Shown: piece after piece, positions 27,501 to 28,720 of the stretch | How the letters are laid out: the number at the start of each line of letters is the position of its first letter | How positions within the stretch are numbered: position 1 is the first letter of the stretch | NCBI RefSeq assembly: GCF_041821025.1 | Contig: NZ_JBGUAY010000003.1 | Coordinates: forward strand, 124,001 to 188,000 | Reading direction: 5' to 3' | DNA length: 64,000 bases | Source of the DNA: Egicoccus sp. AB-alg6-2 | GTDB taxonomy: Bacteria; Actinomycetota; Nitriliruptoria; Nitriliruptorales; Nitriliruptoraceae | Notes under the pieces: generated by a model | Seen by the model: only the letters and a program-made list of their open reading frames with translations | What the model was told of the DNA's origin: nothing | Databases searched by the model: none | Position numbers and translations under genes: made by a program

Positions 27501-28109
27501 CTATCCCTTCGCGCCCCGGCCGGAGTCGCGGACCGACACACCGTGCTCGGCCAGGAAGGCGCGTACGCCCGCGGCGTCTCGGAAGCGGTGGCCGGCGATG
27601 CCGAGCTCGCGCGCGCCCGTGACGTTCTCCTCGCGGTCGTCGACGAAGAGCACCTCGTGGGGCGCGCACGCGAGTTCGTCCAACAGGGCGCGATAGAACC
27701 TCGCGTCCGGTTTCCGGGCACCGAGATGACATGAGGCGATGACGCGGTCGAACCGTCCGGCCAGCAGCGTCCGCGCCAGCTCGTCGACCCAACGCGGGTA
27801 GTTGCTCGCCGTGGCGCGCACCACGACGCCCGCCAGCCCGTCGAGCAGCTCGGCCATCCCGTCGAGCCAGCTGGTCCCGGCGAGCCGCGCCCGGTGGAAC
27901 GCATCCGGGTCGACGTCGATGCCATGGTCGGCGAAGGCGGCCCAGTAGTCGTCCTCGGCCAGTTCATCGCGCTCGAGCGCCGGATAGACGTGCGGGGGTC
28001 GGCGGGCGAAGAGTTCGTCCAGCGACAGTCCCGTCGCGGCGCGCAGGGCATCGCGGTACGGGTCACGCACCACGGTGTCCATCAGGTCGAAGGCGACCAC
28101 ACGGATCAC
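27501..28109 (-). CDS. HAD-superfamily hydrolase
   Basis: A 202-residue HAD hydrolase. Motif I is VVAFDLMDTVV, where the position two after the nucleophile Asp is Met rather than the usual acidic general acid; this variant occurs in some HAD subfamilies. Motif II is in VVRATASNYPRW, motif III in HLGARKPDARFY and motif IV in VLFVDDREENV. It probably acts on a small phosphorylated metabolite, unknown. The GTG start overlaps the stop of the selenoprotein gene upstream, so the two are translationally coupled. Confidence 0.85.
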   Translation of the reverse strand: MIRVVAFDLMDTVVRDPYRDALRAATGLSLDELFARRPPHVYPALERDELAEDDYWAAFADHGIDVDPDAFHRARLAGTSWLDGMAELLDGLAGVVVRATASNYPRWVDELARTLLAGRFDRVIASCHLGARKPDARFYRALLDELACAPHEVLFVDDREENVTGARELGIAGHRFRDAAGVRAFLAEHGVSVRDSGRGAKG

Positions 28110-28720
28110 CCGCTGCCCCCGGCCCGGTCGCTCACGAGCCGGTCGAGACGGTCGAACAGCTGGTCGCGCGAAAGCTCACCCAGCACGCGCTCCACCTCGC
28201 CGTCGGCGCCCACGAACAGCCAGGCCGGCTGGACCCGGACCCCGAAGTGCGACCACAGCGAGCCGTCGTCGTCGACCAGGGTCGGCATCTGCTCGAGCCC
28301 GTGCCGGACGAGGAAGTCCTGCATCGCCTCGTCGTCGTCGTGCGCGGCGACGCCGACGAGCTGGATCTGCTCGCCGTAGGTCTGCAGTGCCTCCGCGACC
28401 GCGGGGGCTTCCCGGTTGCACGGCGTTCACCAGGGGGCCCACATCCACAGGGCCACCTGGTCGCCGTGGGCGGCGGCGAGGTCGATCCGGCCACCGTCCA
28501 GGGAACGCCCCGACACGTCCAACAGCCCGGTCGTCGCGGCGTCGGGCGGATCGCCCTCCGACGGCGCAGCCCCCGGCTCGTCGCCGGTCGACGGCGGGGA
28601 GTCGGTCTCGGGGCCAACCGGCGCCGACGTCTGCCGTTCCGACGGTCCACCGTCGGCACAGCCGAGCAACGCCGTCGCGCAGGCCAGCGCGACCAGGGCG
28701 GTGCGACCACGAGGACGCAT
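28106..28720 (-). CDS. TlpA-like thioredoxin-fold lipoprotein with an in-frame UGA (predicted selenocysteine) in the redox motif
   Basis: Read through one internal TGA, the frame encodes 204 residues. A signal peptide ends in lipobox ALLGC (Cys21), then comes a Pro/Ser/Glu linker (22-65) and a thioredoxin/TlpA domain (66-200). The domain has LWMWAPW before the TGA and TPCNREAPAV after it, then a beta strand and the cis-Pro-type segment EQMPTLVDDDGS, and ends PAWLFVGADGEVERV. The TGA at 28427-28429 is codon 98, exactly where thioredoxins have the first Cys of WCxxC, giving W-U-T-P-C. The frame is the same on both sides. A SECIS-like hairpin follows. The protein would sit outside the membrane as a thiol oxidoreductase. 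The alternatives are a nonsense mutation or a sequence error. Confidence 0.8.
28389..28408 (-). promoter_or_regulatory. Putative bacterial SECIS element
   Basis: Starting 19 bases after the UGA, GCCCCCGC and GCGGAGGC form a stem with a single C-A mismatch and the apical loop GGTC. The loop begins 27 bases after the UGA and has G in its first two positions, as known bacterial SECIS elements do. It would recruit SelB with Sec-tRNA. The hairpin is visible; its function is inferred. Confidence 0.6.
28427..28429 (-). other. Predicted selenocysteine UGA codon
   Basis: TGA between TGG (Trp97) and ACG (Thr99) of the TlpA-like protein. It replaces the N-terminal Cys of the CxxC redox motif; the second Cys is present at residue 101. 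Confidence 0.75.

Follow-up and report, generated by a model that had tools for sequence, protein, structure and literature searches.

The window is a 64,000-nt stretch of the Egicoccus sp. AB-alg6-2 genome, read on the forward strand. On its minus strand lies a gene of 204 codons plus a stop, all in one frame, with an internal UGA as codon 98 (Table 1). Translated with TGA as U, it reads MRPRGRTALVALACATALLGC...WMWAPWUTPCNREAP...RVQPAWLFV...GSG, in which a signal sequence with a lipobox is followed by a Pro/Gly/Ser-rich linker and then by a thioredoxin-fold domain. Codon 98 is where a thioredoxin domain of the TlpA/ResA/DsbE type should have its first redox Cys (WAPW-U-TP-C). The first-pass annotation, made from the letters of the window, had placed an in-frame TGA at exactly this site, and its coordinates and codon number proved right. 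It had also foreseen that annotation would split the gene: ordinary ORF calling, with no read-through, returns a long spurious frame that runs up to the TGA and, downstream of it, a fragment of 72 aa. As it had noted too, TGA otherwise serves as a normal stop here, and the gene itself ends in one. A GGAGG sequence is found 13 nt 5′ of the ATG, a rather long spacing. The lipobox LLGC points to export and membrane anchoring through predicted processing, and its Cys column is nearly invariant in a 26-sequence alignment of homologues.

Table 1. Features of the selenoprotein locus, in positions of the window
Feature	Coordinates	Strand	Basis
HAD-family hydrolase gene; GTG start and selenoprotein stop overlap in GTGA	27501..28109	-	ORF, Pfam, synteny
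Predicted Sec-containing TlpA/DsbE-like lipoprotein gene; ATG at 28720, stop TGA at 28108-28106	28106..28720	-	translation, Pfam AhpC-TSA, modelled fold
Lipobox LLG-C (ALLGC), residues 18-21; predicted signal peptidase II site, lipid-anchored Cys21	28658..28669	-	sequence; alignment
In-frame TGA at codon 98; predicted Sec, opening the U-x-x-C motif	28427..28429	-	TGA at same codon in homologues
Codon 101, resolving Cys of U-T-P-C	28418..28420	-	invariant in 26-sequence alignment
Predicted bacterial SECIS hairpin, GCC-C-CCGC-GGUC-GCGG-A-GGC	28389..28408	-	covariation, RNAalifold, present in Sec/absent in Cys homologues
Codon 165, conserved Pro of V-Q-P	28226..28228	-	Q164 and P165 invariant in 26-sequence alignment

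The thioredoxin fold continues across the TGA, as the first reading had proposed: the Pfam AhpC-TSA model matches residues 68-177 without a break (51.1 bits; cut-off 26), and the Redoxin and Thioredoxin models also match across the UGA. The structure model has a pLDDT of 84.4 overall and of about 95-98 over the domain (residues 71-200). Its best matches in the PDB are Mycobacterium tuberculosis DsbF (3ios, TMt 0.93) and DsbE/MPT53 (1lu4, TMt 0.92), with rmsd values of 1.0-1.1, followed by ResA; the sequence search agrees in placing DsbF and DsbE nearest. These two proteins share the fold over 130 columns at 33-38% identity, as well as a QP motif, and DsbF also has the WAPW-C-x-x-C site, but both carry Cys in place of Sec. 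Unlike the selenoprotein, Cys homologues of the DsbE/DsbF type (locus L107) are without the lipobox Cys. Bacillus subtilis ResA (1st9) is likewise alike in fold and differs in having Cys. With a thioredoxin fold, a W-C-x-x-C site (here with U) and a conserved Pro opposite it, the protein belongs among the TlpA/ResA/DsbE-like proteins. Judging from the fold family, Pro165 is expected to be the cis-Pro opposite the active site.

Among the closest homologues, TGA stands at codon 98 in 8 of 8 genomes from five genera of the same family, and across Actinomycetota we found UGA there in at least 42 distinct homologues. All other homologues examined, the more distant ones included, have Cys at this codon. 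The Sec homologues, from the phylum and from named genomes including Nitriliruptorales, Acidimicrobiales and Microthrixaceae MAGs, mostly carry the motif WFWAPW-U-xxC. Past the UGA the frame stays open and conserved, and the third codon position is the most variable in all three comparisons between close relatives, modestly so for locus L019. In the tree, one well-supported group unites 42 Sec with 7 Cys rows, and 21 further Cys rows fall outside it. The Sec/Cys label changes about 5 times on this tree, which has few columns and many open forks, and at least 2 of the changes are forced by well-supported branches; this suggests that Sec and Cys were exchanged more than once. In one genome (G185) the gene occurs twice in tandem, once with Cys and once with Sec, at L095:1477-2046 and L095:2158-2799. 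A search for plasmid homologues returned matches of less than 60% identity throughout, the best among the matches listed having 41%.

The source genome (3.74 Mb, 98.4% complete) encodes the whole selenocysteine machinery, with selA, selB, selC and selD all above their family cut-offs. The tRNA-Sec (selC) scores 63.3 bits (cut-off 47) and is called tRNA-SeC(tca) by ARAGORN. The selB gene (262.7 bits), whose product carries the SelB winged-helix and beta-barrel domains, adjoins selA (500.8 bits), and selD scores 329.9 bits. The first-pass annotation had named conditions that would refute its selenoprotein interpretation; we checked two of them, on the sel genes in the genome and on UGA or Cys at codon 98 of homologues, and neither refuted it. 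tRNA-Sec is present in all 8 genomes of the family that have the UGA gene; selA went undetected in 2 of the 8, both incomplete assemblies. Elsewhere in the phylum, a tRNA-Sec search at E 1e-9 gave no match in 5 genomes with the UGA gene, and two of these, G158 and G295 (loci L089 and L094), are >90% complete. Within the order alone, the association of the UGA gene with tRNA-Sec is not significant (Fisher p 0.076).

Published rules for bacterial SECIS elements call for an apical loop of 3-9 nt lying 16-37 nt from the UGA with G in its first two bases, a stem of 4-16 bp and a minimum free energy of at most -7.5 (PMC13188914). The hairpin predicted in the window agrees with these rules, with a GGUC loop (28400-28397) at a distance of 26 nt from the UGA and an energy of -11.4 kcal/mol. 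Run with no structure supplied, RNAalifold predicted a hairpin with a GGUC loop 26 nt after the UGA for the subgroup of homologues that includes the gene in the window. In the other subgroup the predicted hairpin has 6 bp, and its loop, of the AG[G/U]UN type, lies 34 nt beyond the UGA. The hairpins of both subgroups show compensatory changes (e.g., CG to UA and GC to AU), and in both the covariation score exceeded those of all 500 shuffles and of all slid registers.

The hairpin also separates Sec genes from Cys genes. Taking the full apical stem as 4 bp for the GGUC type and 5 bp for the +34 type, we found it in 37 of 39 distinct Sec genes versus 0 of 29 Cys genes; in synonymous codon resampling of the Sec set, it appeared in 9.6 genes on average and in 16 at most. 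The pair positions for this comparison were picked after viewing the sequences, and held-out loci were then tested: all 7 of 7 pairs were formed in 3 of 3 Sec genes, the only Sec loci held out, and the stem in 0 of 5 Cys genes. Pooling both sets gives 40 of 42 Sec versus 0 of 34 Cys genes (Fisher p 1e-19, for related sequences that are not independent events). The total folding energy of the downstream stretch was no better than under synonymous resampling across the set (mean z -0.14); the stretch in the window had a z of -0.23. Minimum free energy is uninformative as a SECIS test at this GC content, and we used covariation and the comparison of Sec with Cys genes instead.

When the window's own 60 nt are folded in isolation, a competing fold is more stable than the GGUC hairpin. 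Within the competing fold, in the stretch 28370-28435, an 8-bp stem carries the loop AGGCA at +34, the loop position of the other SECIS subgroup. It is possible that the family has switched between two SECIS placements and that SelB in this species could read either hairpin.

We consider it very likely, with a probability of roughly 0.97, that UGA 98 is recoded to selenocysteine, as predicted from the sequence comparisons. In its favour stand the reading frame, a UGA kept across homologues, a full set of sel genes, a hairpin that covaries and the modelled fold. With high confidence we extend this prediction to the protein as a whole: the gene would encode an exported, lipid-anchored thiol-disulfide oxidoreductase of the TlpA/ResA/DsbE type in which the nucleophilic Cys is replaced by Sec. 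SelB and Sec-tRNA-Sec would decode UGA 98 under the direction of the hairpin, which starts about 18 nt downstream and lies within the coding sequence. The product would then be exported and lipidated at Cys21, and it would act on the outer face of the membrane via a Sec98-Cys101 selenenylsulfide.

In which redox direction the protein would work is more finely balanced. The source genome gave no match to VKOR and has one CcdA-type protein, whose gene belongs to a ResA-CcdA-ResB cluster that includes cytochrome c genes; we therefore lean, at about even odds, towards a reductase that CcdA, a membrane thiol carrier, would recharge. B. subtilis ResA is an extracytoplasmic, CcdA-dependent reductant, and the source genome has a separate Cys-containing ResA beside CcdA and ResB. 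That ResA is a WCGPC lipoprotein, and its System II cytochrome c maturation cluster occupies L140:2767-5870 (G000 contig C6) of the same genome.

Of the readings that differ from this one, the strongest, which we nevertheless regard as rather unlikely, is that the selenoprotein oxidizes secreted proteins as M. tuberculosis DsbE and DsbF do. The nearest solved structures, 3ios and 1lu4, are those of proteins that both catalyse the oxidative folding of hirudin in vitro and do not reduce insulin (PMC3853704). Set against this is the failure to find a VKOR in the source genome. In addition, Sec lowers the redox potential, which as a matter of general chemistry favours reduction.

Less probable again is a role as an extracytoplasmic reductase of peroxides, or of sulfenates or methionine sulfoxide, with Sec serving for fast reaction with the oxidant. 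Sec does react rapidly with peroxides and the domain is detected by the AhpC-TSA and Redoxin models, but the thioredoxin site carries W-x-x-W-U-x-x-C rather than the PxxxTxxU/C of peroxiredoxins, and the nearest structures are DsbF, DsbE and ResA.

Two further alternatives dispense with selenium altogether. Read-through is required on either account of an intact gene and the residue at position 98 is a prediction, so that a suppressor, or UGA recoded genome-wide, could in principle insert another amino acid; we think this highly improbable in a genome that has the full sel machinery including tRNA-Sec and uses TGA as a normal stop, for a codon at the catalytic Cys position followed by a SECIS-like hairpin specific to UGA forms. 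Least probable of all, and close to negligible, is that the TGA is a true stop and the gene a pseudogene, derived from an ordinary Cys TlpA by nonsense mutation or sequencing error: one substitution turns TGC into TGA and ordinary annotation would indeed split the gene, but the same TGA recurs in many species across Actinomycetota, sequencing error being excluded in practice because independent genomes share it, the downstream sequence evolves as coding, and the covarying hairpin is found only with UGA.

Selenocysteine in a TlpA-like UxxC protein is itself on record, and the present gene extends a known kind. A thiol-disulfide isomerase-like UxxC selenoprotein (cd02966) was predicted from Sargasso Sea DNA in 2005 (PMC1088965), Trx-like 1 (COG0526, UxxC) was among the commonest selenoprotein families of the marine GOS data in 2008 (PMC2398784), and a 2026 catalogue lists UxxC and UGC forms of cd02966 and a UxxC form in the Redoxin family (PMC13188914). 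Published UxxC selenoproteins of the thiol-disulfide isomerase-like and Redoxin kinds include accessions MGB1650493.1 and HEU0032618.1. These environmental predictions share the TlpA-like thioredoxin fold and the UxxC motif with our protein; compared by description, the two sets may overlap, and what we describe here are the lipobox, the actinobacterial spread and the two SECIS placements. The first-pass annotation had spoken of a probable new selenoprotein; in view of this catalogued record (PMC1088965, PMC2398784, PMC13188914), 'new' can stand at most for the subfamily. No NCBIfam model reaches its cut-off on the protein. The nearest in kind is NF041054, a WAxxUGC selenoprotein that resembles ours in its ResA-like domain and in having Sec within the active-site motif; it differs in its UGC rather than UxxC motif and in its longer model (354 positions), and we rejected membership at 32.0 bits against a curated cut-off of 300.

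Our literature search found no paper that connects selenocysteine to Nitriliruptor, or to mycobacteria jointly with DsbE, nor any record tying such selenoproteins across Actinomycetota to the DsbE/DsbF group and to two SECIS placements. We tentatively propose, at somewhat less than even odds, an undescribed phylum-wide family of Sec orthologues of mycobacterial DsbE/DsbF, whose SECIS hairpins (GGUC at +26 and AG[G/U]UN at +34) were swapped in evolution and in which Sec and Cys were repeatedly exchanged. What looks like a broken gene would, as a selenoprotein gene, encode a functional redox enzyme, predicted to be extracytoplasmic, and the same annotation loss recurs in many genomes of Nitriliruptoria, Acidimicrobiia and other Actinomycetota. 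Pairs of Sec and Cys orthologues, including a tandem pair, together with crystal structures of Cys forms, make the contribution of selenium outside the cell directly testable, and the tandem copies in G185 provide a natural pair for what Sec adds.

The neighbourhood offers no evidence of a dedicated partner for the selenoprotein. A coupling to the HAD hydrolase had been suggested at the outset, and the two genes are indeed adjacent and kept together within the order, but only there and inside a larger syntenic block. Within the family, the HAD gene and the other neighbours are retained as part of this block at 7 of the 8 UGA loci; the remaining locus, on a 9-kb contig of G006, showed none of them. 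Outside the order, none was found next to the gene, at loci many of which are short. We rejected a functional partnership with the HAD hydrolase: the block with leuB, ilvE, murI and an M20 peptidase is conserved as a unit within the order and is lost beyond it. In two Acidimicrobiia MAGs (loci L115 and L122, at ~1.3-4.4 kb), the Sec gene sits beside genes that, read by eye, resemble those for dihydrolipoamide acyltransferase and dihydrolipoamide dehydrogenase.
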